A stretch of DNA of 64,000 bases from Ilex aquifolium (Eukaryota > Streptophyta > Magnoliopsida > Aquifoliales > Aquifoliaceae). The stretch covers positions 44,790,642 through 44,854,641 of the forward strand of contig OX637394.1 in assembly GCA_951799425.1 (NCBI GenBank). The letters are read 5' to 3'. How positions within the stretch are numbered: the first letter of the stretch is position 1; the number at the start of each line of letters is the position of its first letter. Position numbers and translations under genes: made by a program. The notes beneath the pieces are model-generated. The model did no database searches, was not told the DNA's origin, and saw only the letters and a list, made by a program, of their open reading frames with translations. This document shows positions 2,112 to 44,315 of this stretch, piece after piece.

Positions 2112-2610
2112 TTTTTTAATAAAATAAATTGAAATCCTAATAAATCTCACTTATCAAACAACTGCCAAATTAAATAAAAATATAACAAATAGTATCATTT
2201 TCAAGTTTCCAGAAAAAGTTGGAGATAATAGAAAAAAATATTATATAATTTTTCAGAGAAGGTTTATTATTATAAAATATATTAATCTCACATTAGTCTA
2301 GGTATCCCATTAAGCTTAATTGAAAAGGATCCAAAATATTTGAGTGAGATCATCTCCAACTCACTTTCTCTTCAGTTCTCTTCTTAGTACATCATTTACC
2401 ATACATTCAAATGAGACTCATTATAAACAAGTGGATTCCTTACTCATTAATGGCAGAAGATGTGCCAAGAAAAAAATTGAAAATAAAGTGTACTAGAGAT
2501 AATGTGTACTCCAAAATATTTCCCATTAGCTGAGACTTTGTAGTTTTCATTTGTGGCCAAACATCTGAAACTGGGGTTGTCTGAGTGTAGGTGGGTTTGT
2601 AGAGAGAGAG
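2112..2610 (+). promoter_or_regulatory. MYB copy 1 upstream region
   Basis: This is the upstream region of MYB copy 1. From 2267 onward it is nearly identical to 30610-30964 in front of MYB copy 2, so the two genes share about 340 bp of proximal promoter. A possible TATA element, TTATAAAC at 2421-2428, lies about 190 bp before the ATG and is conserved in copy 2. A short GA tract directly precedes the start codon and is longer in copy 2. No other site can be named with confidence. Positions 2112-2266 are unique to this copy. Confidence 0.4.
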
Positions 2611-3820
2611 ATGGTGAGAACTCCATGCTGTGACAAGGCTGGACTGAAGAAGGGAACTTGGACTCCAGATGAAGATAGAAAGTTAATAGCTTATATCACC
2701 CAGTACGGGTGTTGGAACTGGCGTCAACTTCCCAAGCATGCAGGTACGAGTCTACTAAATAACCCTATTTCAGACGAATAAGAAAAATGATCGTCAAAAA
2801 CTAGATATTTCACCACCAACATTGCAGTTCGTGGCTTAGTCTAAAACTTCTGTGTTCATGTTTTCTTCCCGCTTAGTCTAAAACTTCCTTGCTTGCTTCT
2901 TAATTAAGGTTTATCAAGGTGTGGGAAGAGTTGCAGATTGCGGTGGATGAATTATCTACGACCAAACATCAAAAGAGGGAACTACAGCAAAGAAGAGCAA
3001 GATCTCATCATCCACTTACATAAGTCTCTAGGAAATAGGTACCCCCTTTCTCTCTCTCTCATGTAATGATTCACTATTTATACATGTGTTCTTGATAGCA
3101 TACAAACCAACTATAATGTAATCCATCATTAAGAGCAAAAGAACTTATGAACATTGTGTCGAGCGATGTAGATTTTAAAAATCGAACCACGTTAAATCTC
3201 ATCATGCAAATTTCAACAAAATCTATCTTCATGAAGTTATAAAACAGAAATATCAAATTTGACAAGCTGCACAAAGTTTTTCCCAATTAATAATATGAAA
3301 TCCTATATTGTTCTTTCTCTGCAGATGGTCAATCATTTCAGCCCATTTACCAGGAAGAACAGACAACGAGATTAAAAACTACTGGCACACCTACCTCAAG
3401 AAACGCTCAAAGCAAAACTCAACTCCCGATGAACCAAAAATGAGCTCCGACGATCATTCTCATGGTGAGACCAGCAGTACTGATCAACCATCTCCTTTAA
3501 ACCCTGAAAACCACCGAATCCTTGAAAGCTGCCCATTGTCTCCACAACTAGTTTCTGGTGAATTTTCGACTTCAACCACGGATTCTGCCGGAGAAAACGG
3601 CAGAGAGTTAGTCGGAGATGATGATGTTTCTCCGGCGGAAATATGTGCAGAACCGGTCGGAGATTTTTGGACAGAACCATTTTTGGAAGACAATTACAAC
3701 GACTTCGTGGCACCATTTTTAGATCCTGGGCTTTTGTATCCACCTTCTCCCATTACTGGGGTGGAATTTTCATGCTCAGATGGTTTGTATAATGATCAGA
3801 ATTACGCCTTAAACTGGTAA
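2611..3820 (+). CDS. R2R3-MYB transcription factor, MYB14/MYB15-like, tandem copy 1
   Basis: This is a nuclear DNA-binding transcription factor. Exons are 2611-2743 (133 bp), 2909-3038 (130 bp) and 3325-3820, the classic R2R3-MYB structure with GT-AG borders, giving 252 residues. The start fits the family N-terminus [18 protein letters not shown]2 has tryptophans at 17, 37 and 57. R3 has Tyr70 in place of the first Trp, then W89 and W108, followed by [18 protein letters not shown] at about 98-115. The C-terminus is acidic and Ser/Pro-rich with a [12 protein letters not shown] motif resembling the subgroup 2 (MYB13/14/15) C-terminal motif, so the subgroup is inferred. The bHLH-binding signature in R3 is degenerate (His80, Ser84, Ile91 and His95 at key positions), so bHLH partnership is unlikely. 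Copy 2 is about 95% identical. The gene appears intact. Confidence 0.93.
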
Positions 3821-5885
3821 TATTAACTAATCTAATGAAACGAGAACTTCAGAAAGCGATTGATTTCCGTCCAAATCTGGCTTCTACTTAATGAAAACTC
3901 CTGCATCAGCTTACACTCAGCTGCACTGTTCATGGTTCAGCTGGGCTGGACTTTCTTCTACACAGCAGGACTCCTACCTATCCAGATTAGCGAACAGCAG
4001 TAACTTCTTGGAAAAAGAAGACAAAATCAGTTGGATTTTGAGAATTTTTCTGTTTGTTTTTTAAATAACCTTATCACATGCAGGCAGACTAGACTCTGGT
4101 GAAATGAGGAGACTTCTCCACGTTGATCTTCGCTTCTTAGCTTGGGAATTTTATCAGCAATTTTTGCTGATAACGTTTCAAGGCTGCTCAGAGCCCAATG
4201 AAAGATACTCACCAGATCTCAGAATTTCAAGGCAAAAGATTTACAAGCTACTTAGGAGACTCAAATTCTTTTGAGTTCTTCTTATCTTTCCAGGCCATCC
4301 TCTTTGCTTTTAGCCTCAAGAATTTTAATTAATTCCTTTTCTTTATTTAAAATGCATTATGATGTAATTGCATTTTACATTTTTTATTTTGTTATACTCC
4401 TTAAAAAATGTTCTAATTACAGGGGTATCCCTTATCATTTTTGAAATATTATTCTCACCCCTATCAGATTTTGTATTTTACAGATATAAAAGAAAATAAT
4501 AAATAACATTACTACCACTATCAGAAATTTTTTTTTTTTTTGTCCTATACTTATCACTTATTTTGAACTTAGATTAAATTCTTATTTGACCATTATTAAA
4601 AGAATTTAATTATAGTTAAATAACTCTTATTTTTTATATATACACTAAATTAAATTAATTTTTTAAGTATAAATAACATTAGATTCCTGAATTAAGCCAT
4701 AATAGAATTGCTCTTTAAATTCACTCATAACAAATCTCTTACCACATCCCACCAATGAGATCATATTCCAACAAAAATTCAATCCAATTAAAGCATACCT
4801 CACAAGCAATGATAGATTTTTTCTCCTTCTTGTTTTTGATTGCAAGAAGGGGAGTCGAACAATATCTCTATGCCAAGGTTTTGAATGCACAGCTACATCA
4901 TAAGCATGTATCAGGTAGGCCTAGTTAAAGCCTAAACAAGGCCCACTTTTGATTTAGTAAAAATTGTTGAACAACTTGAAGCCCTATATGTATCCATGCC
5001 GAAATTAGAAATATTTAAAATGTCATTTTTTTTTTTTGTATCTCTTGATCTTTAATTTTTATTACTTTTTGATTTGGATTCCTCGTTTTACTAAAGTTAC
5101 GTTTCTATATATTCAATTTTATTCCTATTTATTTTAAATAATTTTGATTCTAGAGCTTCTCGTTATGTTTTTAGTTTATTATTTATTATTCTTTACTTTC
5201 ATCAATTAATACAACATAAATTCGCAAATAACATATGTCATAGGAGCTTATCATAAATTGAGGATCATGATCCTTGCCAAGGCTTTAATACATCAGCATT
5301 AACAAATTCGGAGCGTGACTCCCGAGAATCTTTCATTTTCACCAAGAATGACATGTTGGCACCAAACCTCTTTTTATACCCGTTTGTCGTATGTTAAAGT
5401 AGAGATTAATACAGTGGTCGTGAAAAGGGTGATGGTAGATCTTCACTCAATAGTTAATCTCATGCGTATATCGACTATTGAAGCGCCAAGCATTCCCATT
5501 AAATTTTGTATTCTAATGCTTTTTATTAAAGTAATTTATTTCTTTTTTGTATTCTAAGTATTTTTAACTTGTCAATTTTTGTATATTTGTTTTCAACTTC
5601 TTTTTTTATTCAGACTTGCTCGCTTTTGATGGTAGATCTTAGCGCAATGATAAAGTTGTTCGACTATAATATGAACGTCAATGATTTATCTCACGAAAAT
5701 AGTTTTATGTGTTTACAGGGATAAACTGTGCACATCTGACCATCCCGAGATCTTACATTAGACCATCATTTTTTCTTACTCTCTTAATAACCTTAATCAC
5801 AAATATAGTAATACACACATGTACAAATGTAACTACATTATTATTAATTTTTTTTTTTTTTGGGAATAAGCAAGAACATTATTTA
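3821..5885 (+). other. 3' flank of MYB copy 1
   Basis: No convincing gene is seen. Positions 3891-4391 (about 500 bp) are replaced in unit 2 by an unrelated 167-bp stretch (32194-32360), so the two MYB copies have different 3' flanks. From 4392 the sequence matches unit 2 again at 32361-32477, and after the Gypsy insertion at 39481-40671. Positions about 5208-5440 are missing from unit 2. A short minus-strand open frame at 4663-4890 recurs in unit 2 only because the DNA is duplicated; it shows no recognisable domain. Confidence 0.6.
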
Positions 5886-6038
5886 GAGCAACTCCAAGGG
5901 GCTATGTAAACCCACCCCTTTAGCTATTTTAGATAACCTTTTCACAAAATATTGCTCCAACGGACTAGCTATTGGGTTATCTAAAATAGATAAGCCCATT
6001 TTCACTCGGTAGATGTAGCTAGCGCTTCTCCCTCGCTG

Positions 6039-6096
<58 letters not shown>

Positions 6097-7314
6097 GATC
6101 GACAAGCTTCATCGATATTCAGCACAGCTCCACCGAGTCCACCGATATTCAGCACACAGGCTCCACCGATATTCAGCACAGCTCCACTGACTCCACCGAA
6201 GGCTCCACCGACTTCAAGGTATGGTTTCATACATACATTCAGATCTCCAAAAAATCTTCGGGTATTTGTTTGATGGGTATTGATGCTCCAACGGACATAC
6301 ATTGATGGGTATTTGTTTGATGCTTTGCCTGATTGGGTATTTGTTTGATGGGTTTACCTAATTTGTGATTTTTGTATTGTTGATCATTTATTTGTATCGG
6401 TTTACCTGATTTGTTTGTAATTTTCAAGGGAGTTTAGTTTTCTATGTTTTGATTTTATTGGGCAATGCTGGTCAGATTTTGTTTTCTATGGTTTACCTCA
6501 TTGTTGTTCATTGTTCAATGGGTGCATGAACCCATAGTCCTCCGGATTTGAGCTTGATGACTGTCATTCGAATGTTTGTGGAGACACTGTTAAAGCCCAA
6601 TGCTTGTTCTTGTTCAAACAGCCATATGCAATCTTTCACAGCTTGAGATTAGGTGTTAAAGAAAAATTTAAATGTGCAAAAACAATTCTCTACAACGTCC
6701 AACTTGAAATTTTTTTTTTTTTTCTCAAAGAAACAAGAACTGCTCTGCTCGTATGAAACAAAATTTTCAATGCTTGATAACTTGTCAATCTACTACTTGA
6801 GGACACAAACATATATAGAAAGCTGAATATAACATTTTGCACAAAGGGAGATAGCAGCAACCTAATGTTATCATCAAAACTAAAGTATGAAGAGCCTCTA
6901 TAGTACTGCATCATCAAGAACCAAGCAGCCATACCACAATGGACTTATAAAGCAAGCATCAATGCAATTATGTACCAATAAACAGAAAGTAGTCTCACAG
7001 ATTTTGATAAAAGCATAAACATGAATTTTTCAGATTTGTCAGATTATCATGAGGTAACCAGCTTGCATATGGACTTGGGTAAACATGGATCTTTGATCAT
7101 TATTAGTGGAAATTGATGCCTGCAATATACTCGTAATAACTAGAATATGTTGATGTTTATAGAAACCCAGTGTGTACTATATCTTGGATGCTATGTGTTG
7201 CCATGGAAAAATCATGCCCCCTTGACTTTATATTTGCAAAACACCAGCTGCCCATACTTGATTCAACACATTGAGGGGAACCTTGCTACTTGTCTCATCT
7301 TATAGGCATTACAC

Positions 7315-8371
7315 ATGGATCCATTCCAACATGGTGCGTACTTCACCAATCTCATGCATAATGAAACAAATTTAGGTGATGAGGTTATAGGTCAATCTTC
7401 ACCAATATCTCCTCAAGTAGAATCCACCACAAAAAAACAACGAGGTGGCAATTTTACATCAGAGGAAAACATTATGATAATCTCGGCGTGGCTTAATATT
7501 AGTTTGGATGCTGTACAAGGAAATGAGCAAAAATCAAAGACATATTGACATAGGGTTTGCGAGTTCTTCCACGAATACAAACCTAAGACATGCCCTAGTC
7601 GTAGTCAAAATTATTTGATGAATCGTTGGTCGGCAATTCAGCTAGCCACCAATAAATTTTGTGAGTGCTTTGCACAGATAGAAAGACTGAATCAAAGTGG
7701 CTTGACAGAGAAAGACAAGGTATGAGTGAATTTTAATGACAAAGACAAGGTATGAGTGTGGATACTTTTAATGACACGATAATGAGTTTTGTTGTAAATT
7801 TTTTCAGATTCGTGATGCCAAGAACTTGTACAAGGAACTCCATAACTCTTCTTTTCAGTATGAATATTGTTGGAATGAGTTAATGTATCAACCAAAATGG
7901 ATGGAGGATTCTCAAGTAAAGAAGCAAAAAACAAAACATAATGCTACTCCTGGCAGATCCGTGCCTTCTACAGCGGACTCCATAAATTTAGGAGATGACG
8001 GTGGGTCCTATGGATTCTTAAACAGGCCACCTGGAAGGAAAGCTGAGAAAGCGCGACTACGAAAATCAAAGAGCAAAGAAGGTGGAGGTGATGCAGAAAA
8101 TTCTGAACTTGTTCATCTGTTAGCAGAAATGAAGGAAGAGAAAAAGGTAGTGAATGAGAAGAAATTTGAAATGATGGAAAAATGTTATTTTCAAGAAGAG
8201 CAACGCCTGCTGCAAGAACAACAACGTCTACTGCAAGAGAAAGAGAAAATGCAAATGGAGCAACTAAAAGAGGAAGATCGAATAATGTCGATGGATACGA
8301 GTTGCATGTCTCCGGTGCAAGCTGAATATTATCAGCGCCGCCAAATGGAAATCTTGGGGAAGAAGATGTAG
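7315..8371 (+). pseudogene. Harbinger ORF1, Myb/SANT-like DNA-binding protein
   Basis: In PIF/Harbinger elements this accessory protein binds transposon ends and brings the transposase into the nucleus. Two exons are seen, 7315-7719 and 7808-8371, joined by a GT-AG intron with a TTTTCAG acceptor; they are in phase and total about 322 codons. The N-terminal half has the family signature around FTSEENIMIISAWLNISLD. The C-terminal half is a Glu/Lys/Gln-rich coiled coil (about 8140-8290). The only break seen is TGA at 7546-7548, where the family normally has Trp (KTYW). Such genes are often mis-annotated as glutathione S-transferase T3-like; no GST domain is visible. Confidence 0.8.
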
Positions 8372-8498
8372 TTCTTTTTTATTAATAGACAAACAACTTT
8401 AAGTAGTAGTAATGATGGTACAAGTACTGTAATAACATTTGCTTAAGTAGTGCCTAGTAGTTTCCATGCATATTCTACTGATGCTCGACTAGATCAGC

Positions 8499-9722
8499 TT
8501 AGAGTTTGGAATGACTTTCTTTGTCTCTGATGCAATGTTGAGTATTGATAAATTGCAGCAGTTCTGAACTCTGATCAGGTATGATTGTGGCAGTGGGATT
8601 CTCATCCATTATATCATAGCTAAAGTCCAACTCATTAGCATTCCACTCATCCTCGACAATCATGTTATATAATATTATGCATGCCTTCATAATATCCTTA
8701 AGCACTTCAAGTGTCCAGAAACGTGCTGGTCCACGCACTATAGCAAATCGTGCTTGGAGCACTCCAAATGCTCGCTCAACATCTTTTCTTGCTGACTCTT
8801 GAGATTTTGCAAAGTGTATTTGCTTATTGCCTCTTGGACATGGAATTGTTTTGACAAATGTTGCCAATTTTGGATATATACCATCAGCAAGGTAATATCC
8901 CATTGTATAATCGTTTCCGTTGACTGAGAAATTGACTAGAGGAGCCCGACCTTTTGAAATGAGAGCAAAAACAGAAGAGCGTTCTAATACGTTGATATCA
9001 TTTTGAGATCCAGGTAACCCAAAAAAAGCATGTCAAATCCAGAGATCATATGAAGCCACCGCCTCCAAAATAATTGTTGGTTCATGGATGTGACCAGAAT
9101 ACATACCTTTCCATGCTGTTGGACAATTTTTCCATTTCCAATGCATACAATCAATGCTACCCAACATCCCAGGAAACCCACGATTGGTACCCATTGCTAA
9201 TAATCTAGCAATGTCATCATTGTTTGGTGACCTAAAGTATTCATCGGAAAAAATTGTTACTATCGCCCTCACAAATCTTTTCAAACTTTCTATTGCGGTG
9301 CTTTCACCAATCCTCACATAATCATCAACAACATCTGCTGCAACTCCATAAGCAAACATCTTTATGGCAGCTGTCATCTTTTGAAGGGAAGACAAGCTAG
9401 TAATTCCAGCTGCATCTATTTTTTGGACAAAATATGGATCATAATCTTCCACCATTGATAAAATACGGAGGAAAATGGTTCGATTCATTAGAAACCTTCT
9501 TCGAAATAAATTTGGGGGATAGATAGGCGGTTCAACAAAATAATCACGATACAGTCTCTCGTGCCCTTGAACTCGATTGCGAAAAATAACTGAATGACCT
9601 TGAATGGAACCACGACGTACACCAGAGCTTTCTTCGCTATTCCGTTTGTTCATTTCGATAGCACAAATTGTTACCATCTCCAATTCATCATCGGAATCAG
9701 AATCGTCAAGAATCATCTTCAT
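8499..9722 (-). pseudogene. PIF/Harbinger DDE transposase (HARBI1/ALP1-like)
   Basis: This is the DDE-superfamily nuclease that excises and inserts the element. The minus frame runs from ATG at 9722 to 8499 (about 408 codons), the full family length. Visible features are an N-terminal helix-turn-helix region around YDPYFVQKIDAAGITSLSSL, a catalytic Asp in GSIDCMHWKWKNCP, KGMYSGHIHEPTIILEAVA, the LADGIYPKLATFV segment with the second Asp, and KDVERAFGVLQARFAIV with the catalytic Glu. One in-frame TGA (9033-9035, minus) replaces the Trp expected in DLWIWHAFFG; the frame is otherwise open. It converges with ORF1, as in autonomous elements. Confidence 0.87.
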
Positions 9723-9829
9723 TACAGGATGGTGAGCTATAACATAAACACAAAGAATAGTGCAATGTCAATAAATAAATTTTAGGTGTATGATAATGAG
9801 AGATGGAAGATCCTATTTATACATATCCA

Positions 9830-9925
9830 AAAATATGACCGTTGCAAATATGACCGTTGTAATATGACCGTTACAAATATGACCGTTACAAATATAACCG
9901 TTGTAATATGACCATTGAAAAATTC
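9830..9925. repeat. Subterminal TATGACCGTT repeats in the Harbinger element
   Basis: Five to six copies of TATGACCGTT, with slight variants, are spaced by about 10-16 bases just inside the right end of the element. The reverse complement, AACGGTCA, contains the AACGG core of a Myb recognition site. ORF1 of this element is Myb-like, so these are candidate binding sites for ORF1 or the transposase. That role is inferred. Confidence 0.6.
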
Positions 9926-10237
9926 AAATTTTAAATTTTTGAATTTTCTGACCATTATAAATATGACCATTATTTAAAAAAAATAAAATTTTAAAATTTT
10001 GATGACGTGGCGTAACACGTCATCATGTGTTGTCATCGATATGGTGATGACATGGTATACTACATAGTATTTTATATTTTAATAATTAAGAGTTAGTTGA
10101 AGTTAGTTGAAATGGTTAGCTAAAATAGATAACGTTGTTGGAGTGAGTTTGAAAAAATGGATAGTTAAAGTAAATAATAGAATAAAAAAATATATTTTGG
10201 CTAGCTAGTTTACGTAGTCTCCTTAGAATTACTCTTA

Positions 10238-13200
10238 CATGGCATGATTTATATAAATTACTTTTAGTACATAATGATGAAAAATGTTATGATGAAATTG
10301 CTTTTTATTTACATAGAAAAAAGGTTTAGGAAACGGTAGTTTAATTATGTAGAACGAAATCATCAAACAAAATGAACTTTTGATGTTCAATGATGATAGG
10401 GACGTGACATTTTATTTCATGATCTAACGTGAAATTCATGTGGCTTAAAGTACGTTTGACCATTTAAGCGACTAGGCTCCTCAGCAACATACCCTTCTGT
10501 TGGCTGGTCTTTGAACCCTCTTGCAATCCGTACGTTTGTTTTGTACTTTCGATATCATATATTTTTATTTATTATATTTATGATTATTTTTATTATATTT
10601 GTGAGCTTTTTATTACTGTTGTAATATATTTTAAAAAAATAATAAAAATAATTATTACAATAATTATAAAAATATCTATAAATATGATAAAAATACTCAT
10701 AAATATAATAAAAACACCCACAAATGTAATACTTTTTTTTGTATTAAAGAAAAATGCTAAAAATAGTTATCATAAATGTAATAAAAACACTCATAATAGT
10801 GATAAAAACATTCATAAAACCATACGCAAACAGTAATCAAGTCCCTGTACAAATACAAGTGTCTCTATTTTGACTTGGGTCAACCAAAACAGTCCATGAA
10901 TATTAGCTGGGGATTTCTGAAGGAAGCAGATACATTTCTTGATGACTCCAAAAGCAACCACAAAGGTTATTCTTTACTCAAAAGGTTTTTGAGTTTTTTT
11001 TTTTTTTTGTGAATGGAGGGGGGGGGGGGGGGGGGGTTCAATAGAATTCTTTACAATCGAAAATCACTCCAAACATATATCTTTTAGATTGTACTTACTG
11101 CTAAATACAGAATGCATGCAATATCCCATAAATCACTTGCATCAAGATCAATCAGAGAGTATTTTATGATATTTTAATTTGATATCTCGAGTTTTTAACT
11201 ATTGAACATCTATAAACTTAACTACATTGAGAAATTAAAGGTAATGGTAAATTTGGCAGATTTGCATTTTTTTTTTTCTCACAAGGTTGGGACTATTCCA
11301 CCTCATAAATCCTACCGCAACCTCATTATACTCTTTAATATAAGACAATTAGGGTAATGCTATCGATACTTAATTTATGGACCTAATTGAATAAAGTCAT
11401 TGGATTAATTATACATTCCAGTGTTAAATGAAACTCATTTTCAATAAAATACGATCCCCGACTCCACTAGATTCATGTTTCCTAAGATAATTAAATACTT
11501 CACTTTAGTCAATAAAGTTAAATAATTTATTTTGACCTCTAGACACACGCGGTGTGGAAAAGAAAACCTACAAGAAATCAAACTTTATATTCACAAGCAA
11601 GTTTGAACTCATTTACTACAAATGTTTGTGTTCCAACGAGAGTCTTATAATTGACCAAAAAAGAAAAGAACGTCCTATGTAGTATACTTTATCTCCCTAT
11701 ATTTTGAAATTTTTTAAATTAAATATTAGTATAAAAAAATAATTATACTCTTTGTTTAACATTTTTTTAATATTTTCTCCTAAATATTTTTATACAAACT
11801 ACAAAATCTACTTAATACATACCGAGTGGTGAATGAGAGAAAGGCTGGTTAATTTTGGAGAAAAATAATAAAAAATAATGTATAAATGTAATTTTAATAT
11901 GTTTTTTTATTACTTCCTAAAGGATCTAAGTCCTAAGTTTACAAAAGTTTACAGTATACAAAAAAAAAGAAATCATGCTAAGTAGTTGTGAGGGAGATCC
12001 CATAACTACAGCATCCTAAGATTCTACGGAGAATTCTTGAATTTAGCAGATATGAGCCTATCTATATCAAATCTTCTGTCAGATATAAATGAATTATGTT
12101 TATTTTATGTATATTAGAAAAAAAGATGGTATTTTAGTCAAAGGAAAACTACTCCGATATTTTAGTCAAAAGAAAATTACCCCTACATTAATATTTTATT
12201 TTGTGCGAACCAAACATCGAGTTTAAAATTAACCTAATCTCATTCCCTCTAATCCATCCTTCTTATCTTCTTTCGAGAGGTCGAATTAGATGAAATTATT
12301 TATTCAATTTAATTTTATTTATTGAACTAAACGCCCGATTAAAGACAAGTCAATGTTATTGAGAGATACTATACCGAAAGTTTATACGCAATCATAAATC
12401 TTATTTTGAGTTATTTATAGTTATTAATTATAAAAATAATAAAAAAATTAAATAATTAAGTAATAAAATATTAGACATGTCAATATGTAACTGCCAAAAA
12501 GAAAGGTGTATTCAAAACATTAAAAAAATTCAAAAAAATAGGAAGTTTGACTCTCCTGGATCAGCAATGGCTCTTTCGTAAACTTTGTCTATTTGTCCCA
12601 CAACTATTTGGGATAAGACTACCGTACCAAATGAGATTTGGATTTGAGTAATTTATAACTATAAAAATTATAAAATAAAAAAATTATATACGAAATATAA
12701 TAATAAATTAAAAAAAATATCACAGAGATATAATATCAAAACTAATCTGAAATCGTTAATTTTGGTTAAAATGATTTGTGACCGTTGATTAAAAAAACTA
12801 ATAAAGTAATAAAAATTCAATAAAATAAAATAAAAAACTCAAATTGTGATATGTTTTTATTGAATGAAAAATAGAAATATGATACTAAAAAATTAATTTT
12901 GGTACCGTAACCACACTCTTTCTCAAGATTTGATTTGACTTTATTTATGTTTGTGTAACGAAAATATAAATTTACTAGTAATTACTCGTGCCTGAAAGTA
13001 TTATGTTATTCAAAAAAAATTTTAAAAAATTTGCCCATACATAAAGGCACTATATAACACAATTTCAACAAAAAACAATTAAATTGACAACATTTATGTA
13101 AAAAAAGTCATGCTACGACTATAACAACATATATATTTCAAACATCTGAGAAAATTAATTTCACCGAAAAAGGTACCTATAGCCAATGGACTAATAGACT

Positions 13201-13781: not shown

Positions 13782-14599
13782 TGTAAAAAACTAATTATAG
13801 ATTTTAAGCATAGATTTATAATTGGAATTAAATAAAATTGCTACTGAACTTTTGGCCAAATCAACAAATATTAGATTTATGATGTGAGCAAAATAACTAT
13901 GAGTGTTCGAAATAAAGCATGCAAACAGTAGTTAGATCATTAAAAATATAACATGCAATTTAAATAAATACAGAAAATGTATAAACATGTAATCTATATA
14001 AACCAAATAAATTTATTTAGAAAGAGCTGGCCTGCGAGTCCGAGAGGCGTGTGATCACTGTCCTAAAGCAGCTGAGCCTCCCCACGTGAGGGTACTAACG
14101 GACACCAACGACTCCAAGATCCAACTCAGACGCTCGCAGCAGCATCTTCTCAATGATCACATCCACTGGAAGGTTGAAGTGAACCTGACTCGAATCGAGT
14201 TGCCCAAAACAATATAATATATGACAATTGGAAAAGGTAGGCCAAATGTAAAAGAATTGATATGAACAATTGGAAAGTCTACTGATGTTGAAAAATTGTT
14301 GTACAAAAGAATTATTCAAAGCCCTTTATATAGCCGGTGTATGTGTGCAACATACACATGACTTTTCAATTTCTTTTTGACCGTTGGCCCATACTAGTGT
14401 AACCTACTAATAATATATTTTCAATGGATTTGAATGTTTGGCTTGAATAGCCATAAAACTAGATTTAAAAACAATAATTATTATTCTTGAATATACACAC
14501 TAAATAGGATCAAAAAAATTTGCAACTGAAATTTATTATTTAAACATAATTAAAATGAAAATTCAATAAAAGTTTTAAAAACTTAATTTTATTATTACA
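13782..14599 (-). repeat. Copia 3' LTR
   Basis: 818 bp, beginning TGTAAAAAACTA and ending TTATTATTACA on the + strand. It is about 98% identical by eye to the partner at 28479-29297. Short open frames inside the two LTRs are matching shadows, not genes. Confidence 0.9.
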
Positions 14600-28450: not shown

Positions 28451-28478
28451 AAACTACAAATGGTCAGCTGCTTTAGAT

Positions 28479-31405: not shown

Positions 31406-31438
<33 letters not shown>

Positions 31439-32125: not shown

Positions 32126-32477
32126 TATTAACTAATCTAATGAAACGAGAACTTCAGAAAGCGATTGATTTCCGTCCAAATCTGGCTTCTACTTGGTGGC
32201 ATTTTGTTCTGATGTGCAATCATTGCTTCTACATATTTAATAATTTTTTATATTTTAGGGCATACCACATACCTCGTGTTGTGATAATTCCCTTTTAACT
32301 TTTTTTTCATGGACCCGATGTGACCCGAGGTTGTCTTGTCAATTATGAATAAATTTTGGTTATACTCCTTAAAAAATGTTCTAATTACAGGGGTATCCCT
32401 TATCATTTTTGAAATATTATTCTCACCCCTATCAGATTTTGTATTTTACATATATAAAAGAAAGTAATAAATAATAA

Positions 32478-33076
32478 TGATGCACAAATTGACTTTGTAC
32501 ACCGACTGTCAAGTTAATTGGAAATAAAAGCAGTAATTAAAGTAGAGAGAGAAGACGAGGATTATAGTGGTTCGGTCAATGCGACCTACGTCCACTTTTG
32601 AATGGCTAGAGCTGCCGGATTATTTTATTAACTCCGGTGAGTAGAGAAAACAGAGAGTACAAGTTCAGAGATGAAGATGAGGTATGTGCTCTGTTTTGTG
32701 TGTTGCCCCCCAAGTGTTTGTGGGACTTACATTTTATAGTCGTCCCCTAACAGATTGGGGCGACTTAATAGCAACTATCCAACTATTCTGGTGGGGCTTG
32801 CGACTTCTCCTCAATGGGTGAGACCGTTGAGGTGCTCTACATGAGACTCGCTCAAAGGATGAGAAAGGTTGACCGCTTCCAAGGTGGTAGAGGTGAGGGT
32901 CTTAAGTGCTCCCTTGTTGTCTTGCATGCTCCCCTGATGTAGCTCCTCCTAATGAGCTTGACCGGACGTGAACCACTTTGGGCGCTAGATCTCTTGGAGT
33001 TAGGCCATTGGGCTTGTAACATGAGTTGGGTCCTTGGGCTTGTAACATGAGTTAGGCCCTTGGGCTTGGCTCATCA
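32478..33076 (-). repeat. Gypsy remnant 3' LTR
   Basis: 599 bp, TGATGCAC...CTCATCA on +. It pairs with 38883-39480 and contains the GTGGTTCGGTCAATGCGACC block shared by both LTRs. Confidence 0.87.
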
Positions 33077-34588
33077 TTTGCCCCCCAATGCCCTGTGTCC
33101 AATGGAACTTGGAGAGGAGGGCATTCGGTTGAATTTTCGGCTGATCGGCATAACTGAAAAAACTTCGGGAGGCCAAAACCTGTGCTTTTAGGCATTTTTT
33201 GAGCTTTTAACAGAATCAATCACATCCAAAGGCTGTAAGTCTTGTAGGGCTCGCCGAGAGCTTCGATTTGATATATTATAAGCCTCATTTCGAGTAACGG
33301 AGTAAAAGTTACGGTCAAAACTTTGAGCAAAGAGTTGGGTGCACGGTTTTGGGCGACCAGACAGTTTTTGGGGGAGCACATAGTGTCTTGGGCGAGCAGA
33401 TAGGGTCCTGGGCGAACAGATTTTTTTTTTTTTTTTTTGAAAAAAACTTCGGGAGGTCAAAACAGTTGTTTCTGAGCCTTTTTTAGACTTTTTACAGCAT
33501 CAATCACAACCAAAAGTTGTGATTCTTGTAGAGCTCGTCAAGAGCTTCGATTTGATATATTATAAGTCTCATTTGGAGCACCTTGGGCGAGTTGGGGCTG
33601 CCTTGGGCGAACCTGGGGCTGCCTTGGGCACCTTGGGCGACTGATGGTGATGGTGAGGCGCCTCTGGTCAAGGCGAGCACGCCAAGGCTGGGCACCGGCT
33701 GCAGGGGGCGAGCTTTGATGCTCCTCGCGTGTCGAGGGCGACGCGATCTGTAGGGGCCCTAGAAGAGAGCTTGTGGGTCTTGGTGGAGAGCCCGTAGGAA
33801 CTAATGCTGCTCTCAGAGAGAAGGAGGCAGTCAGTGCCTAAGTAGAGGTGCTAGGCGCCGAGATGGGGGCTCCAATAATGGGCGAGCCCACTGTTTTTGT
33901 TAGAGAGACGAGATCTCAAGAGACGAGCAGCAGGGCGCCGCTTGGGCTACTCCGTCTGCGCTGGGCGCCTGGGAGGTCTTGGCTCCTGAGAGGTACTGGG
34001 CGACTGTGCTGGGTGCCTGGGAGGTTTGGGCGCTGTGCTGGGCGCCTAAGAGGTGTTGGGGGCCTGTGCTGAGTCCCTGAGAGGTGCTGGGCGCCTGAGA
34101 GGTCTGGGCGTCTGAGAGGTGCTGGGTGCCTGTGCTGAGCACTTGAAAGGTGTTGGGCACCTGTGCTGGTCGCCTGAGAGGTGTTTGGGCGCCTGAGGGG
34201 TGCTGTAAGGTCTAGGCTACTCAGGCTGGGCACCAGGAGGGGCGTTAGTACCCAAGAACAGGTGCCAGATGGATGAGGCTCGATTGTTGACATTTAATCT
34301 AATGTAGTCCCTTGGGTTGCAGATGACCTGAGTTTCAAGATCCCGCCCAGAGATGGCAAAAGAAATGTTATTTCAAACATTAAAATATCTAACACAATTA
34401 CCTGGAGAGAGAGGTAGGCTGCTTGCGCGAGAGCAAAGGCAGAGTATGAGGATTGCTCGTGAGAGAGCTACATCTTTTGAGACCGAGCTTTTGGCGACCC
34501 ATGAGAGAGTCCTTAAGCATGAGGTATAGGCTGCCTGTTTGAGAACAGTGCAGGGGTAGGTGGGATGCCTGCTTGAGAGCAGTGCAGA

Positions 34589-37581
34589 CAGTGGCGGAGG
34601 GAGAGCTGGGCCAGGGTGGGCAAGTGCCCCCCCTCAAAAAAAAAAAAATTTTTTTAGTAGGGTATATGTATTATATATTTATATTATATATTATGTGTGC
34701 CCCCCCTCATTTATATTAGGCCCACATTATTTACCCAAAAAAATTAAAAAATTAAACCCATTTAAAACAAAAAAATTTGAGCCCAATATTATCTACCCAA
34801 ACCTATCACAAAAACTTTTGACTCAACATTAAAAAAATAAAATTTTTGGCCTAATATTAAAAACAAAACTTTTGGGCCACAATTAAAAAAATAAAGATTT
34901 TGGCCCAACATAATAACATGGGTTGAAAGTTGGCCACTTCCCTAACATAAAAACAAACTTTTTTTTTGTCTGTCTCACAATTCATTCACTCCCCCACTTG
35001 CCTGTTGGCTCTTGCCCAGCTGAAGACGAACAGAGACCTTGTTCAGAGAATCAGAGTAAAGGTGCTTCGACACTGTAGGGCCACCACCAACCGAGGAAAG
35101 GTTTTTGTCTTTCGTTGCATCGACACAGTAGGGCCACCACCAACCGATTAAAGTAATTACTCACTCACTCTCTCTCTCTCTCTCAACACACACACACGCA
35201 CAGCACAGTCTGTGCACACAACAAACACAATAAATTAATTTTTAACAACACTGTGCACACAATACACTTTTTGTGCATGTTAATTTTTAACCCTAATTTA
35301 TATTTTTGTGTATTTTGCCCTTATTTGAATTTTTATGCATTTTTCCCTAATTTATTTTTTTGTGCATTTTGCCCTAATTATTTTCTTGATTTGTTATAGC
35401 TCGGATTAGTAATTGGGGATGCCTTGAAGACCTTGAGTTGCGGTTATTGAGTCGACAGTGAAAAATATTTTTTGGTAACTCTCAATCCGAACCTATTTTT
35501 AATACTTTGAATGATATTGCTTGGATTTATTAAAATTATGAATTAGATACTTTTATGTATTTGTACTTGTATTTGTTTTCTAATACAATATATTTTTTAG
35601 AATGATAGCGATTAAATTGAAAAAATAGTTTGTTTAATAAATTGTAGAAGTGTATGTATAAACCCAATTTCTTGAATAATTTTTTGAAACAGTCATGGAA
35701 AAGTACTTCAAGAGAAAGCCTGAGTCAGAGTTATCACCACCTTCAAACAGAGGTGGTGATTCTTCAAAGAAAAGTCATGTAGATATTAATTTGGCGGATC
35801 TTTCCTCAGATCCCGGACTACGGCCTCAGATTATGGATTATAATCCTAATGATCGAGACCAAATTCGTAGAGCTTATCTACAAAAGGGTCCTTGTCAACC
35901 CCGCAACCATAATTTTCCACAAAAAGGATTTGGTGTTAAACTACGACGATTTAACAAAGCTTGGTTTTCTCAGTTTGGTAACTGGCTTGAGTATAGTATA
36001 ACAAAAGATGCAGCATTTTGTTTGTGTTGTTATCTTTTTAAATCAGATATGGGAGAACAATCGGGTGGCGAAACCTTTGTTAGCTCGAGCTTTTCAAATT
36101 GGAAGAGAATAGAGAAGTTCCAAATGCATGTTGGAGGCGTTAATAGTTCACATAACCAAGCTTGGAGAAAATGTCAAGATTTATTAAATTCAAAGCAAAG
36201 TATTGGAGCTATTTTCTTCAAACAGTCAGACCAAGTTCGAAGTGAGTACAGAACCCGGTTGAATGCATCAATTGATTGTATTCGATTTCTTTTAAGGCAA
36301 GGGCTTGCATTTCGTGGTCACAATGAATTTGAGAATTCAAATAATCAAGGAAACTTCCTTGAGCTTCTTAGATTTCTTGCGGATCACAATGAAGATATTA
36401 AAGATGTTGTGTTGAAAAATGCTCCTAAAAATCTCAAGTTGACTTCACCTGAAATTCAAAAAGACATTGTAACTGCAGCTTCTATTGAAACGTGTAATGC
36501 TATTGTGACCCACCTTGGTGATGCACTTTTTTCTGTTCTTATTGATGAATCATGTGACATATCAACAAAGGAGCAAATGGCTGTTGTGTTGCGATTTGTG
36601 GACAAGAAGGGACATGTAGTTGAACACTTTTTAGGTTTTGAACATGTTACTAATACTAGTGCTCTCTTACTTAAGGCAGCTGTAGAAGATTTATTTGCTA
36701 GACATGGGTTGAGCTTGTCAAGATTGCGCGGGCAAGGTTACGATGGGGCTAGTAATATGCGAGGTGAGTTCAATGGTCTCAAGACACTTATAATGAAGGA
36801 GAATGAATATGCATATTATGTCCATTGTTTTTCGCATCAATTGCAATTAGCTCTTGTGGCCGTTGCAAAGAATCATATTCAAATCGCGACTCTTTTCAAC
36901 TTGGTTGCTAATATTGTTAATGTTGTGGGAGCCTCATGTAAACGGCGAGATATTCTTAGGGAGAAACAAACGACTAGAGTTATTGAATTAATCGATAATG
37001 AGGAGCTTTCAAGTGGGCGAGGCCTAAATCAGGAAACTAATCTTACACGTGAGTGATACACGTTGGGGTTCACATTATAATTCTTTGATCAGCTTGATTG
37101 ATATGTTCTCATCAGTGGTTGATGTGCTTGATATAGTCTCAGAAGATGGTATAAATGCAGAACAATTAGGGGAGGCAAATGTTCTTTTGGATTTGCTACA
37201 ATCTTTTGAGTTTGTATTCAATCTTCATTTAATGAGAAGCATTTTGGGAATCACAAATGAGTTGTCGCAGGCATTACAAAGGAAAGATCAAGATATCATG
37301 AATGCCATGACATTAGTTCAAGTATCCAAGCAACGACTTCAAATGATGAGGGAAAGTGGTTGGAGTTGTTTTCTTTATGATGTCACATCTTTTTGTGAAA
37401 AACATGAGATAGTTGTTCCACAGATGGACGATATCTTTAAAGCTCGAGAGAGGTCAAGAAATTTTAAGTATTATATATAATTTAAAAAAATTATTTGTCT
37501 TTAACATTAATACTTCAGAAGACAAATTTTTAAACTTATAGTTAGTGCCCCCCCTCATATAAATTCCTGGCTCCGCCCCTG
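34589..37581 (+). mobile_element. hAT transposon nested in the Gypsy remnant
   Basis: 2993 bp with hAT-type ends: left CAGTGGCGGAG, right, reversed, CAGGGGCGGAGCCAGG. It has exact 8-bp target duplications AGTGCAGA (34581-34588 and 37582-37589). A subterminal GTGCCCCCCCTC motif occurs near both ends. It encodes a partial transposase on +. The copy is probably dead because the transposase is frameshifted and lacks its C-terminal dimerisation domain. Confidence 0.93.
35695..37480 (+). pseudogene. hAT transposase (TTF zinc finger/DUF4371 type), truncated
   Basis: A cut-and-paste transposase of the type often annotated as zinc finger MYM-type 1-like. It starts MEKYFKRKPESE. A TTF-type zinc finger spans about residues 65-160 (AAFCLCCYLFK ... 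NWKRIEKFQMH). The DUF4371/catalytic region then shows VLIDESCDIS, GQGYDGASNM and HCFSHQLQLAL. The first frame ends at 37056 and the protein continues in another frame from about 37049 (SDTRWGSHYNSL), so there is one frameshift at about 37048-37056. The C-terminal hATC dimerisation domain is missing; the element ends about 100 bp after 37480. About 595 codons remain of a usual 750-800. Confidence 0.85.
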
Positions 37582-37944
37582 AGTGCAGAGGTAGGCTGTC
37601 TGCTTAAGAGTAGTGCAGAGATAGGTTGTCTGCTTAAGAGTAGAGCAGAGATATGCCAAGCTTTTTTGGCGACCCGCAAGAGGCAAGTCAATCTTTTGAC
37701 GATCCGCGAGATGATTCACCTCGCCTAGACCTGTTGATTTCCTCAACATTCATATATTTTTGAGTTTTTGCCAATAGTTATGGCATGCTCTTTGGTGGTC
37801 GTTTCATTACTAAAAAAAGGAAGCTTGATGACCGGAGGCCTCCCAAGAAGGCGGTCATGCTGACCTTTTCATCGGGCTTCTCGACCTGAAGGACTTTCTC
37901 GTTAAAACGAGTGAGGTAGCTCCTTAACTCTCATCTGGGTCCTG

Positions 37945-38820
37945 CTATATGCTGAGCAGGTGGGTGGCAGGTTTCTGGTGGCGGCGTCCTCCAATTAACT
38001 GTGTCACAAAGGATCTGCTCAGTTCGGCGAAGGAGCCTATGGAGGCCGGAATGAGTTTGGCGAACCATTGTCGCGCTGATCCCTTCAAGGTAGTTGGGAA
38101 CGCTTTGCACATAATTTCGTCGGGGACGTTGTGCAGCTGCATCAAGGTCTTGTAAGTTTCCAGATGGTCCAGTGGATCCTTCGTACCGTCAAAGGTCTCC
38201 ACGGATGACATTTTAAACTTTTGAGGGAGGGGGTAGTTCGCCACGTCAAGTTTGAAAGGCGTATCAGTTCGTCTAACAAGGTAATCCACAGTCTCAGGTC
38301 CTTGCGCCTTCATGGCGTTGAAGACGTTACCCAGTTGGTTTTGCACATCTTTTATCTTTTTGTCCCACTGGTTGGGAGCTCCTTTGTAATTGTCATGAAA
38401 ATGGCTTCCATGCTCTGGTTCTCCCCCTCGTCCTCTTGAAAATGGGAGTTTTCATCATGGGGAGCAGGAGCTGGAGGTCCCTCATAGGGAGCTCCCCCAT
38501 GCTGGGCGCCTAAAGGGGCTCCCATAGGTGGGGCGCCCAAATGGGCTCCAAAGGTGGCGCCATGATGGGGTGTACCCGTATGGGGAGCTCTTTGACGCTC
38601 AAGGCGTGGAGCTCCTCTCACTTGAGGTCCAGGTAGTGCTCCTCCTTGCGCAACAAGCATCAGTTGAAGGATTTTCTGGTTCTGGGCCACAAGCTCCTAC
38701 ATGGTCTCCAGCATCTGCTGCGTACTTGGGACAGGATTGGTTGGGGGAGGAGCAACCTCCTCTTCTCTTGGTGAATTATCTTCATGTTGGTTCATCGATC
38801 TGGTAGTGATTGCCATCGAA
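37945..38820 (-). pseudogene. Gypsy gag remnant
   Basis: Minus-strand fossil gag with FDGTKDPLDHLETYKTLMQL and AFPTTLKGSARQWFAKL, closely matching the gag of the Tat element at 57220-57600, preceded by a Pro/Gly/Ala-rich N-terminal part beginning MAITTRSM. It is broken, and the pol that should follow is not recognisable. Confidence 0.83.
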
Positions 38821-38882
38821 TCGACAGAGGGAATGATTAGAAGTGAGAAGTTTGTCGTTTCCCACAGACAGCGCCAAACTGA

Positions 38883-39480
38883 TGATGCACAAAATAGGTT
38901 TGCACACCACCTGTCAAGTAATAGTAATAAATGTGATAATTTAGAGTAGAGAGAGAATACGAGAATTATAGTGGTTCGGTCAATGCGACCTACGTCCACT
39001 TTTGAATGGCTAGAGCTGCCGGATTATTTTATTAACTCCGGTGAGTAGAGAGAACAGAGAGTACAAGTTCAGAGAGGAAGATGAGGTATCTGCTCTGTTT
39101 TGTGTGTTGCCCCCCAAGTGTTGGTGGAACTTATATTTTATAGTCGTCCTCTAACAGATTGGGGCGACTTAATAGCAACTATCCAACTATTCTGGTGGGG
39201 TTTGGGACTTCTCCTCAACGGGTGAGACCGTTGAGGTGCTCTCCATGAGACTCGCTCAAAGGATGAGGAAGGTTGACCGCTTCCAAGGTGGTGGAGGTGA
39301 GGGTCTTGAGTGCTCCCTTGTTGTCTTGCATGCTCTCCTGATGTAGCTCCTCCTAATGAGCTTGACCGGACGTGGACCACTTTGGACGCTAGATCTCTTA
39401 GAGTTAGGTCATTGAACTTGTAACATGAGTTGGGCTCTTGGGCTTGTAACATGAGTTGGGCCCTTGGGTTTGACCCATCA
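38883..39480 (-). repeat. Gypsy remnant 5' LTR
   Basis: 598 bp. The first 60 bp or so (+ strand) differ strongly from the partner LTR, while the rest is closely similar. Confidence 0.87.
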
Positions 39481-39485
39481 AATAA

Positions 39486-42400
39486 CATTACTACCACTAT
39501 CAGAATATTCTTTTTTTTGAACTTAGATTAAATTCTTATTTGACCATTATTAAAAGAATTTAATTATAGTTGAATAACTCTTATTTTTTTATATACACTA
39601 AATTAAATTAAAATTTTAAGTATAAATAACATTACTCTATGTTCTTGGATTAGATTTCCAAATTAAGCCGTAGTTAAATTGCTCTTTAAATTCACTCATA
39701 AAAAATCTCTTATCATATCCCACCAATGAGATCATATTCCAACAAAAATTCAATCCAATTAGATTTTCCAACAAACAATGATAGATTTTCTTTTTTGTTT
39801 TTGATTGCAAGAAGGGGAGTCGAACAATATCTCTATGCCCAGGTTTTGAATGCACAGCTATATTATAAGCATGTATCAGGTAGGTCTAGTTAAAGCCCAA
39901 ACAAGGCCCACTTTTGATTTACCGAAAATTGTTGAACAACTTGTAGCCCAAGATGTATCCATGTCCAAACTAGAAATATTTAAAATATCATTTTTATTTT
40001 TTTTGTATCCCTTGATCTTTAATTTTTATTACTTTTTGATTTGAATTCCTTTTTCTACTAAAGTTATGTTATATATATTCAGTTTTATTCCTACTTATTT
40101 TAATTAATTTTGATTCTAGAGCTTCTCGCTATGTTTTTAGTTTATTATTTATTATTCTTTACTTTCATCACTCAATAGTTAATCTCATGCGTATATCGAC
40201 TATTGAAGCGCCAAGCATTCCCATTAAATTTTGTATTCTAATGCCCATTCAAGTAGTATTTGTTAAACGGAGATAGTCCCCTAGTAAATTTTGCTAATCT
40301 AATCAAATTATTAACTTAAGTTTCATTTTCTAACGCTTTTTATTAAAGTAATTTATTTCTTTTTTGTATTTTAAGTATTTTTAATTGATCTCTTTTTGTA
40401 TATTTTTTTTCAACTTCTTTTTTTGTTCGGACTTGCTCGCTTTTGAGGGTAGATCTTAGCGTAATGATAAAGTTGTTCTATTGTAATCTAAACGTCAATG
40501 ATTTATCTCACGAAAATAGTTTTATGTGTTTACAGGGATAACTTGTGTACATCTTTTCTTACTCTCTTAATAACCTTAACCATAAATATAGTAATACACA
40601 CATGCACAAATGTAAGTACATTATTATTATTATTATTTTTTTTTTTGGGGAATAAGTAAGTACATTATTTACATGGCATGATTTATATAAGGAAATCTAC
40701 TTATACAAACTACAAAATCTACTTAATACATACCGAGTGATGAATGAGAGAAAGGCTGGTTAATTTTGGAGAAAAATAATAAAAAATAATGTATAAATGT
40801 AATTTTAATATGTTTTTTTATTACTTCCTAAAGGATCTAAGTCCTAAGTTTACAAAAGTTTACAGTATACAAAAAAAAGAAATCATGCTAAGTAGTTGTG
40901 AGGGAGATCCCATAACTGCAGCATCCTAAGATTCTACGGAGAATTCTTGAATTTAGCAGATATGAGCCTATCTATATCAAATCTTCTGTCATATATAAAT
41001 GAATTATGTTTATTTTATGTATATTAGAAAAAAAGATTGTATTTTAGTCAAAAGAAAACTACTCCGATATTTTAGTCAAAAGAAAATTACCCCTACATTA
41101 ATATTTTATTTTGTGCGAACCAAACATCGAGTTTAAAATTAACCTAATCTCATTCCCTCTAATCCATCCTTCTTATCTTCTTTCGAGAGGTCGAATTAGA
41201 TGAAATTATTTATTCAATTTAATTTTATTTATTGAACTAAACGCCCGATTAAAGACAAGTCAATGTTATTGAGAGATACTATACCAAAAGTTTATACGCA
41301 ATCATAAATCTTATTTTGAGTTATTTATAGTTATTAATTATAAAAATAATAAAAAAAATTAAATAATTAAGTAATAAAATATTAGACATGTCAATATGTA
41401 ACTGCCAAAAAGAAAGGTGTATTCAAAACATTAAAAAAATTCAAAAAAATAGGAAGTTTGACTCTCCTGGATCAGCAATGGCTCTTTCGTAAACTTTGTC
41501 TATTTGTCCCACAACTATTTGGGATAAGACTACCGTACCAAATGAGATTTGGATTTGAGTAATTTATAACTATAAAAATTATAAAATAAAAAAATTATAT
41601 ACGAAATATAATAATAAATTAAAAAAAATATCACGGAGATATAATATCAAAACTAATCTGAAATCGTTAATTTTGGTTAAAATGATTTGTGACCGTTGAT
41701 TAAAAAAACTAATAAAGTAATAAAAATTCAATAAAATAAAATAAAAAACTCAAATTGTGATATGTTTTTATTGAATGAAAAATAGAAATATGATACTAAA
41801 AAATTAATTTTGGTACCGTAACCACACTCTTTCTCAAGATTTGATTTGACTTTATTTATGTTTGTGTAACGAAAATATAAATTTACTAGTAATTACTCGT
41901 GCCTGAAAGTATTATGTTATTCAAAAAAAAATTTAAAAAATTTGCCCATACATAAAGGCACTATATAACACAATTTCAACAAAAAACAATTAAATTGACA
42001 ACATTTATGTAAAAAAAGTCATGCTACGACTATAACAACATATATATTTCAAACATCTGAGAAAATATATCACTTGACAATATTCAATGTAATTTTTGTT
42101 AATTCAACATCCATAATTTCAATATTTTTAATCAACTTTATCTCAACTTCCAAAAAAAATGTTCACCAACTCTCAAATTCTAAAAAAATGTTGATTGTTC
42201 ACCAATAATTATGTAGAAAATTAATTTCACCGAAAAAGGTACCTATAGCCAATGGACTAATAGACTGTACTAAAAATAAATTAAACTCATAATACAAAAT
42301 AAGCAATCGATACAAAGTATTTTTTTTGGTCATACAAAATGTTGAAAAACAACATGTGAAGCAAGCAATGAAATTAGAAGTACATGAATATGCAAATTTA

Positions 42401-44315
42401 AATTATGAAACAAATGCTAACCTTTGAAATAATCAATCACAACTCAAAGAGCAGAAAATACTAAGGAAGTTCATAAGAAGACTTTGAGCATCAGTTTACC
42501 CTTATACAACCTCTCAAATGCCACAACTGTCAATCAAAAACAGAAAAATATAATTATGAAAATCGTATAATTCTTAGTCAACAAAAGTTTTTATAATACG
42601 ACAATAAAAATAATTCATAAAGCAAAGAAAAAAATGAGACAAAGGAAATAATTCTGTAACCAATCGTAAATGACAAGTACAATTTAAACACAAGAGTCAC
42701 TAACAAGAATTTGAATCCATCAGGTTGGATGTGTTGGTCCCTTTGGTAATTAAACTCAATTACTCCATCATTTTTTAGTTACTACAATGGATGTAATTTT
42801 GTTTAAAATATCTCCTATAGAACATTTTTAGGACATTATGAACTAAAGATAGAAATAAAAGCACAAAGATAACATGGTTCGACATATTTTGCTTACGTTC
42901 ACAGACTAAAAAATTACATCGATATATTGATATTTGATTACTTGATAACTGATTACATTATACTCAATCATATTTATAAAATGAGTATCTAATACGATAA
43001 ACATAAAATATTCTCACCCATTCTTATCTGATATAATTTGGGTATTGTTGAATCTCTATAAATTCTATCACATGTCTAATATATAAGTCTTAAATCTAAC
43101 TTAACCCAAAAAAATTAATATCAAGTTCATCCAATGTATATTATTTTCTTTTTTGTCAATTTATTAATTATTGATGTGAAACTTAACCCTCACACATTAT
43201 TTCAATATCTAAATTGAACATCATGAGATAGTTCAAGTGGTAATAGAAACGAGCTGTAAGTTCAAACATTCTGAATTCGAATTTTGACAACTCCTTGGAA
43301 CCAGACCATAATGGATTTATCCTTCGTGAATACTCTAGTCTGGCATGAATAACTTCCCTTTAACCGGACTGAGGAAAAGATTAGTCGAGGTGGTGCTCTC
43401 TAAAATCTTCAAATACAGCAAGACAGTCCTTCAATTTGAATAGACCAAGCTCAGATCACATTCATTTTTTTTTTTTTTTGCTACCCAGGGAAGGTTTCTT
43501 GTTCAGAACTTCAGATAGTCTTCTTATTAAATTCACAGCCGCGTGGAGAAGTTGAGCCCCAAGTCTTTTTGATACATTATTTTTGGGAAAAAAATCACAA
43601 AAACTGACTTTCCAATCTTTCCCACGTCCACCATGATTGAATATTCAGCCCAAGCTAATCAACCATGACAATATTTGGAAGAAAAAAAAATCCTAATGTA
43701 CTATCATCGTCCTCGTACAATGTATGTTTTTCTCCTTCCTTGCCCTTCGTCCCTCCCCCATCCTTATTAGCTAATAATAAAGTTTAAAAAATTACCGCAA
43801 GTTACAGGTTATTAATCTAATTTTTTTTGAAAAATTATAAATGATAGTAAGTTGGTGAGAGAGTGAAAGAGTGGTGATAAGAACCAAGTTTGATAAGAGA
43901 AAATCTTTGTTTACTAATAAAAAACCAACATTAGTAAGAGTGAGAGAGGGTTGAAAGATGAGTTAGAAGAAATGAGAGGAAAATAAAAGACGTGAACATC
44001 GTGCATTGGACGGGGATAATGGTAGTATATTTAGATAACAATTAATGGGAAAATTTTAAAAATTATGGGGAGTTGCAGTAATAAAAACTAATTCTCTTGG
44101 AAAAATTCAAATCAATAGTTGCTAATTGGTAAGAGACTAGAAGAGCAGTTATTATAGGAACCAAAGTACTAGGTAGTACTAGGTAGTGATTGGAGGATAC
44201 CTTAGTTTAGTAATAAAAAAAAATTAAGTTCTAGGAATTTAGAAACTAGGGAGGGAAGACTTAGAAACTAGGGAGGGAAGACTTATTAAGTCATCTTCTT
44301 AATTTGTTTGTTATT
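39486..44315. other. Unit 2 intergenic flank, no gene
   Basis: It matches unit 1 (4507-5885, 11805-13781 and 29298-30609). Differences include a deletion relative to unit 1's 5208-5440, an extra stretch at about 40243-40335, loss of the 10258-11804 segment, and about 150 bp extra at about 42066-42216 bounded by GAAAAT direct repeats. A SINE-like copy lies at about 43217-43399. No gene is seen. Confidence 0.65.
43217..43399 (+). mobile_element. SINE-like element (unit 2 copy)
   Basis: The duplicated counterpart of 29611-29793. It has GAGATAGTTCAAGTGGTAAT as A-box-like and GAATTCGAATTTTGAC as B-box-like sequence, closer to consensus than the unit 1 copy. Confidence 0.5.

Follow-up and report, generated by a model that had tools for sequence, protein, structure and literature searches.

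Results

Two head-to-tail units within a larger MYB array

The window, by which we mean the whole 64,000-nucleotide stretch analyzed here (G000:C4:44790642-44854641, from an 800-Mb genome), contains two consecutive units, U1 and U2, each carrying an R2R3-MYB gene whose two MYB repeats are spread across three exons (Table 1). Coordinates are window positions, obtained by subtracting 44790641 from the C4 coordinate; negative values and values above 64000 denote the flanks on the same chromosome. Self-alignment paired 2262-30614 piecewise with 30605-44322, bearing out the correspondence of the two units that had been proposed in a preliminary description of this DNA.

Reading the window together with its C4 flanks (284 kb), we located 15 MYB loci by tblastn. 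Six are of type A (A0-A5, all with open exons), and U1 and U2 correspond to A3 and A4, respectively. Type B accounts for four loci, of which B5 contains a stop, and type C for five, four of them with a stop; in the C copy near -88k the exon piece that carries the stop is detached. Of the four stop-bearing C copies, two gave no exon 1 match. The C- and B-type copies with stops or without an exon 1 match are situated in the C4 flanks near -80k, -40k, -5k, 79k, and 118k, indicating that the array holds decaying genes. When the genome was searched with the A-type MYB gene, copies with at least 93% identity over at least 600 bp fell in one C4 stretch only, and weaker MYB matches occurred elsewhere in the genome (among the best 40 of 235 candidates).

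Assembled from several repeats, the order of the array repeat appears to be C(MYB)-u-A(MYB)-h-s-M-B(MYB)-t. The stretch from C through B is displayed by the A5 repeat; B is absent from those of A1 and A2. A block-h match lies further upstream (C4:44511534) and MYB matches continue downstream (C4:44973-45006k); the array is therefore probably larger than the 284 kb read. Other sequences also recur: paired adjacent CCA-rich repeats of 0.67 kb, 82% alike (750-2109 in the window), are found to the left of A1, A2, A3, and A5, and a minus-strand block in which reverse-transcriptase-like frames were recognized by eye (50500-54545) was probably copied along with the array repeats, since it is common to several of them. 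A Pfam search with one frame of this block returned no match.

Table 1 Features of the two MYB units and their surroundings, in window positions
Feature	Position	Strand	Details
Unit 1 (U1; array copy A3 + spacer s)	2267-30609		piecewise alignment with 30610-44315; TTATT 2267-2271
R2R3-MYB gene A3	2611-3817	+	exons 2611-2745, 2908-3039, 3323-3817, open; frames, tblastn, PF00249
Poly(A)-tailed insertion, 3'-truncated copy	~3890-4386	+	U1
Harbinger-type element	5886-10234		4,349 bp; TSD TTA 5883-5885/10235-10237
Array DNA, block h, right of Harbinger	10235-11781		deleted in U2
Interval corresponding to crossover	11248-11299		last h=h2 site 11247, first following h=h1 site 11300
Tract near-identical to U2 40693-42066	11782-13155		11/1,373 differ
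Copia element	13782-29297	-	LTRs 13782-14599 and 28479-29297; TSD GTTCG 13777-13781/29298-29302; U1 only
CACTA-type element nested in Copia	14773-23584		termini CACTACAACAAAA/TTTTTGTTGTAGTG; TSD ATC
Junction of spacer s and gene block A4	30605-30614		TTATT microhomology 30610-30614
Unit 2 (U2; array copy A4 + spacer s)	30610-44315		piecewise alignment with U1
R2R3-MYB gene A4	30965-32122	+	exons 30965-31099, 31262-31393, 31619-32122, open; frames, tblastn
LTR element ("Gypsy" of the preliminary description)	32478-39480		7,003 bp; LTRs 32478-33076 and 38883-39480; U2 only
Empty Harbinger TTA + 19 bp right flank, then deletion edge	40669-40702		U2
Type B MYB gene, within A4's array repeat	47379-49272	+	tblastn

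Transposons inserted after the U1 and U2 lineages split

The preliminary description held that every large insertion in one unit has an intact empty target in the other. We recovered all three target site duplications and their empty counterparts, with the qualification that the right flank of the Harbinger site is incomplete in U2. Harbinger carries matches to PF04827 and PF13359, which we take to be Harbinger-type transposase families, and these, together with its TTA duplication and inverted ends, place it in PIF/Harbinger. Copies of the family elsewhere in the genome begin their match at query base 1, end it at base 4349, or both. A plain alignment of U1 with U2 opens its first gap at 5886-11781, of which Harbinger makes up 5886-10234 only; A0, A1, A2, and A5 each carry at least some of the DNA of the remainder (10235-11781). 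Beside its empty TTA (40669-40671), U2 has thus lost approximately 1.5 kb of block h and kept 19 bp (40672-40690). Across the six A copies Harbinger is present in A2 and A3 only; the site is empty in U2, A1, and A5, with both flanks intact in A1 and A5, and A0 is without the site. At the edge of the U2 deletion (40690-40725), ten bases at 40693 recur 22 bp downstream, at 40715. They may represent templated filler; they may alternatively be array DNA changed at three positions (40697, 40699, and 40700), and this second reading weakens the case for filler.

The Copia element possesses RVT_2 and copia gag matches, LTRs, and a 5-bp target site duplication, features that assign it to Ty1/Copia. Its site is empty in U2 (42877-42881), A1, A2, and X6b, and X6a reads through it with one changed base; A5 lacks the site, and A0 has no alignable site. 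The 15,516 bp between the outer LTR ends comprise approximately 6.7 kb of Copia and a nested 8.8-kb CACTA-type element, classified by its CACTA termini and 3-bp target site duplication. The nested element holds long tandem repeats of a GCGACG-bearing unit, and all of its listed frames of at least 120 aa fall within these repeats.

The LTR element of U2 is flanked by AATAA (32473-32477/39481-39485), and its site is empty in all five A copies other than A4, including U1 (4502-4506). Two of its four listed frames of at least 120 aa were searched in Pfam, yielding gag and DUF4371; the gag match is weak (24.3 bits against a cut-off of 24.1), and reverse transcriptase was not found in these two frames. 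Because DUF4371 (35695-37056), which we take to be usually hAT-related, accompanies a gag match of this strength, the element may be composite. A smaller difference between the units is a 155-bp deletion in U1 relative to U2, between 7-bp AGAAAAT repeats (13149-13155).

Together, Harbinger, Copia, and Gypsy amount to 26,868 bp (4,349 + 15,516 + 7,003), in agreement with the approximately 27 kb of gained transposon DNA previously estimated. Polarity drawn from the other array copies likewise upholds the earlier proposal that all three inserted after the U1 and U2 lineages had split.

A shared insertion and segment trees separate U1 from U2

A fourth, smaller insert, which the preliminary description missed, bears on the relationship between the units. 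This poly(A)-tailed insertion occupies one position in A1, A2, A3, and A5 (broken up in A1, and with a tail of 25 A in A5), and both A4 and A0 are empty there, with CTACTT running uninterrupted into GGTG. On C8 the insertion has a relative (87%), and the genome contains repeats of its 3' part.

We compared trees for five segments: the A gene, the DNA downstream of A, and the spacer segments Sa, Sb, and Sc. Sisterhood of U1 and U2 was rejected by the approximately unbiased (AU) test in three of these (p-AU 0.00017 for the A gene, 0.0067 for A downstream, and 4.4e-6 for Sc), with A2 placed beside U1 in the constraints for the A gene and for A downstream and with A0 left out of Sc. For Sb, where tree and test were made without A5 and X6a, the AU test gave p=0.029 and the KH and SH tests 0.132. 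The Sa tree joins U1 and U2 as sisters (98%); its AU output compares two equal trees and is uninformative. The groupings also differ among segments. A3/A2 group with A1 and A5 in the A-gene tree (100%), the A-downstream tree separates A4, A2, A3, and A5 from A0 and A1 (84%), and A4 pairs with A5 in spacer Sc (96%); in the exon tree A0 pairs with A3 (86%) and A4 branches off outside the other five A copies (62%). These conflicts suggest that the units are mosaics, and they also blur any single order of events.

Divergence between U1 and U2 is similarly patchy, ranging from 0.8% to 13%. K2P distances are 0.042 in the A gene (63 of 1553 positions differ), 0.131 in A downstream (153 of 1282, or 78 of 1046, 7.5% raw, without a 236-bp hypervariable stretch), 0.008 in Sa (11 of 1373), 0.037 in Sb (23 of 630), and 0.049 in Sc (60 of 1281). 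Heterogeneity is significant (chi-square 45, p=9e-10) in a comparison that takes the non-coding part of the A gene with Sa, Sb, and Sc and leaves out A downstream. Synonymous divergence between the units is 0.042, and the non-coding part of the A gene has diverged by 0.056±0.009. Within U2 41054-42267 three aligned sites differ from U1, and in Sc U2 differs from A5 at 6 of 969 positions. Such near-identical tracts against a background of 4-7% point to conversion or local exchange, by which the U1-U2 tract at approximately 41054-42267 and the U2-A5 tract in spacer s would have been homogenized.

LTR divergence (K2P) provides a further comparison. That of Copia, 0.022±0.005, is below the U1-U2 divergence in four of the five segments. 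That of Gypsy, 0.078±0.012, exceeds it in four of five, contrary to the expectation of the preliminary description that no LTR pair would be more diverged than the units, although it lies within approximately 1.5 standard errors of the non-coding A gene. Gypsy thus looks too old for four of the five segments, and yet its site is empty in all five other A copies, a combination consistent with an old A4 lineage and later homogenization of parts of the unit. We also considered methylation-driven decay as the source of A4's long branch near Gypsy. C>T or G>A changes make up 36 of 104 A4-only singletons, and the excess peaks in 40200-40399 (49 of 183 sites); on these counts the explanation is rejected.

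An unequal crossover duplicated 34.9 kb beside the junction

The flank from -59106 to -22345 matches -24199 to 12550 over 36.8 kb, reflecting a tandem repeat of approximately 34.9 kb that includes the left part of U1 and whose copies differ by 12 substitutions and six indels between the crossover markers. In a three-way alignment, the repeat at -24199 to -22345 (h; C4:44766442-44768296) is a hybrid of two diverged h repeats. On its left, 25 of 26 informative sites are like the window copy h2 (10733-11247) and one is like the far copy h1; on its right, from 11300 on in window numbering, all 19 are like h1. Gap columns were excluded from this count, and seven of the 26 left sites adjoin an indel by a G run where h differs in length from h1 and h2. 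Of the 49 matches obtained for 10704-11781 (from the best 40 of 814 candidates), those that cover the crossover part all lie on C4, at 44.51-44.90 Mb.

The inner junction of the direct repeat thus blends two diverged repeats that flank it, which shows that the 34.9-kb duplication was made by unequal homologous crossover, placed within 52 bp. Being to the left of the crossover, Harbinger was duplicated along with the gene, and Copia, to the right, was not. A crossover inside Harbinger is ruled out, as the element ends at 10234 and the crossover interval is array DNA. The earlier statement that unequal exchange between transposons played no part accordingly stands insofar as the crossover is outside them, but unequal exchange between array repeats did occur.

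One could instead suppose that the 34.9-kb repeat, and it alone, is an assembly artefact in which a repeat was walked twice or two haplotypes were joined, a supposition compatible with any of the histories discussed below. Only 12 substituted sites in approximately 34.9 kb would fit, and a path through the h repeats would yield the same hybrid. The 12 substitutions and six indels are, however, spread along the copies and are more than a copied path should show. We consider such an artefact improbable, and the non-sister relationship of U1 and U2 is independent of this repeat.

The 30610 junction is most likely a microhomology-mediated deletion

TTATT occurs at both ends of U1 and U2 (2267-2271, 30610-30614, and 44311-44315), and at the 30610 junction it is the few-base identity shared by otherwise non-homologous flanks, the hallmark of microhomology-mediated joining. 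Random breaks would give microhomology of at least 5 bp in 0.9-1.0% of cases. The junction is inside no transposon that we found. A 201-bp query across it had 32 matches in the genome, of which the window itself was the one of full length; the others span no more than query positions 1-127 or 96-201.

The two sides of the junction have known neighbors elsewhere. Block u adjoins A on the left in four of the five other A copies (A0 is without u and breaks at 2527), and spacer s continues into M in A1, A2, A5, and U2. Both sides are therefore broken relative to the array, and one event joining the s of one repeat to the A of another and removing M-B-t-C-u accounts for the head-to-tail pair. The preliminary description was right about the TTATT microhomology, but the joint that it took for the breakpoint of the tandem duplication is more simply read as a deletion. 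We infer that 30610 is most likely a microhomology-mediated deletion between two array units and not the founding duplication, the identity of the missing M-B-t-C-u block being deduced from the array order. In front of A4, only approximately 355 bp of array-type upstream DNA remains. Microhomology-mediated end joining and template switching are both known routes to such joints, and at 30610 their products look alike, as do deletion and duplication when read from one haplotype.

Discussion

We consider it probable that U1 and U2 are non-sister units of a larger array shaped by unequal exchange, patching, and deletion, including the deletion at 30610. Under this history, the gene-block lineages of U2 (A4) and U1 (A3) split first; the poly(A)-tailed insertion and the separation of A1, A2, A3, and A5 came afterwards, an order shown by that insertion and the A-gene tree. 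Following the split, Gypsy entered A4, Harbinger the A2-A3 ancestor, and Copia the A3 spacer, as the filled and empty sites show. The crossover in block h duplicated 34.9 kb, in which a MYB gene and Harbinger lie, and so produced A2 and A3; the data accommodate either order of this event and the Copia insertion. Short tracts would have been homogenized between copies, a pattern that is visible in the alignments and for which conversion is the putative cause. A microhomology-mediated deletion of M-B-t-C-u between the A3 and A4 repeats would most likely have set the A blocks head to tail. Loss within the array has other instances, in the B genes missing after A1 and A2 and in the 155-bp deletion of U1.

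A single founding duplication can be retained if it is placed early. An A-h-s tandem duplication through TTATT would then have created the 30610 junction, and the other A copies would have arisen later, with unequal exchange removing the second copy. Such a duplication gives the same map as the deletion, with u-[A h s]-[A h s]-M-B having exactly the structure of a tandem duplication, and the basal position of A4 in the exon tree, as well as the A4-first order generally, would also fit it if homologous losses followed. It predicts, however, that the units are sisters unless it was early and was removed elsewhere by later exchange, which requires loss of the junction from the A0, A1, and A5 repeats. 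The shared insertion and the AU tests in three of five segments reject its simple late version, which makes the two units sisters. We regard the early duplication as a serious contender, if an unlikely one. The account originally given, one tandem duplication followed by nothing more than three transposon insertions, explains the piecewise alignment, the empty sites, and the microhomology, but it is scarcely tenable in light of six A copies, non-sister units, patchy divergence, the 34.9-kb duplication, and Gypsy LTRs more diverged than four of the five unit segments. The shared insertion by itself refutes it, barring independent insertion at the same site or precise loss from U2.

Turning to the preferred history of exchange and deletion, its closest parallel is the maize p1/p2 locus with the P1-wr cluster, likewise a tandem head-to-tail MYB array. 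Within one 379-kb interval that locus combines nested LTR elements with illegitimate joining, gene conversion, and unequal crossover (PMC2686159). For maize bz, the same paper refers to conversion tracts 1-1.5 kb long. The maize cluster, as portrayed there, consists of eleven nearly perfect 12-kb repeats (PMC2686159); the repeats studied here are older and more diverged, their units hold as many as three MYB types, and the stretch read contains one near-identical pair. Compared with NAHR in tandem arrays there is no difference in kind, and the 34.9-kb crossover adjoins the junction under study. The locus is therefore a fresh example of a known set of processes and ordinary in kind.

These results carry a caution for dating by empty sites. 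Where the window takes in only part of a larger array, a comparison of two copies can give a false picture: the insertions here do postdate the split, but that split was no private duplication, and the wider context is what separates junction formation, homologous exchange, and the timing of transposons. We give roughly even weight to a fuller stratigraphy, in which a microhomology-mediated deletion fused non-sister repeats and gave A4 a foreign distal promoter, and in which a crossover placed to 52 bp and conversion tracts of kilobase length reshaped the neighbors. If true, illegitimate and homologous exchange alternate within one stretch and can be separated by the order of transposons, and A4 would be flagged as a copy with a replaced upstream region.
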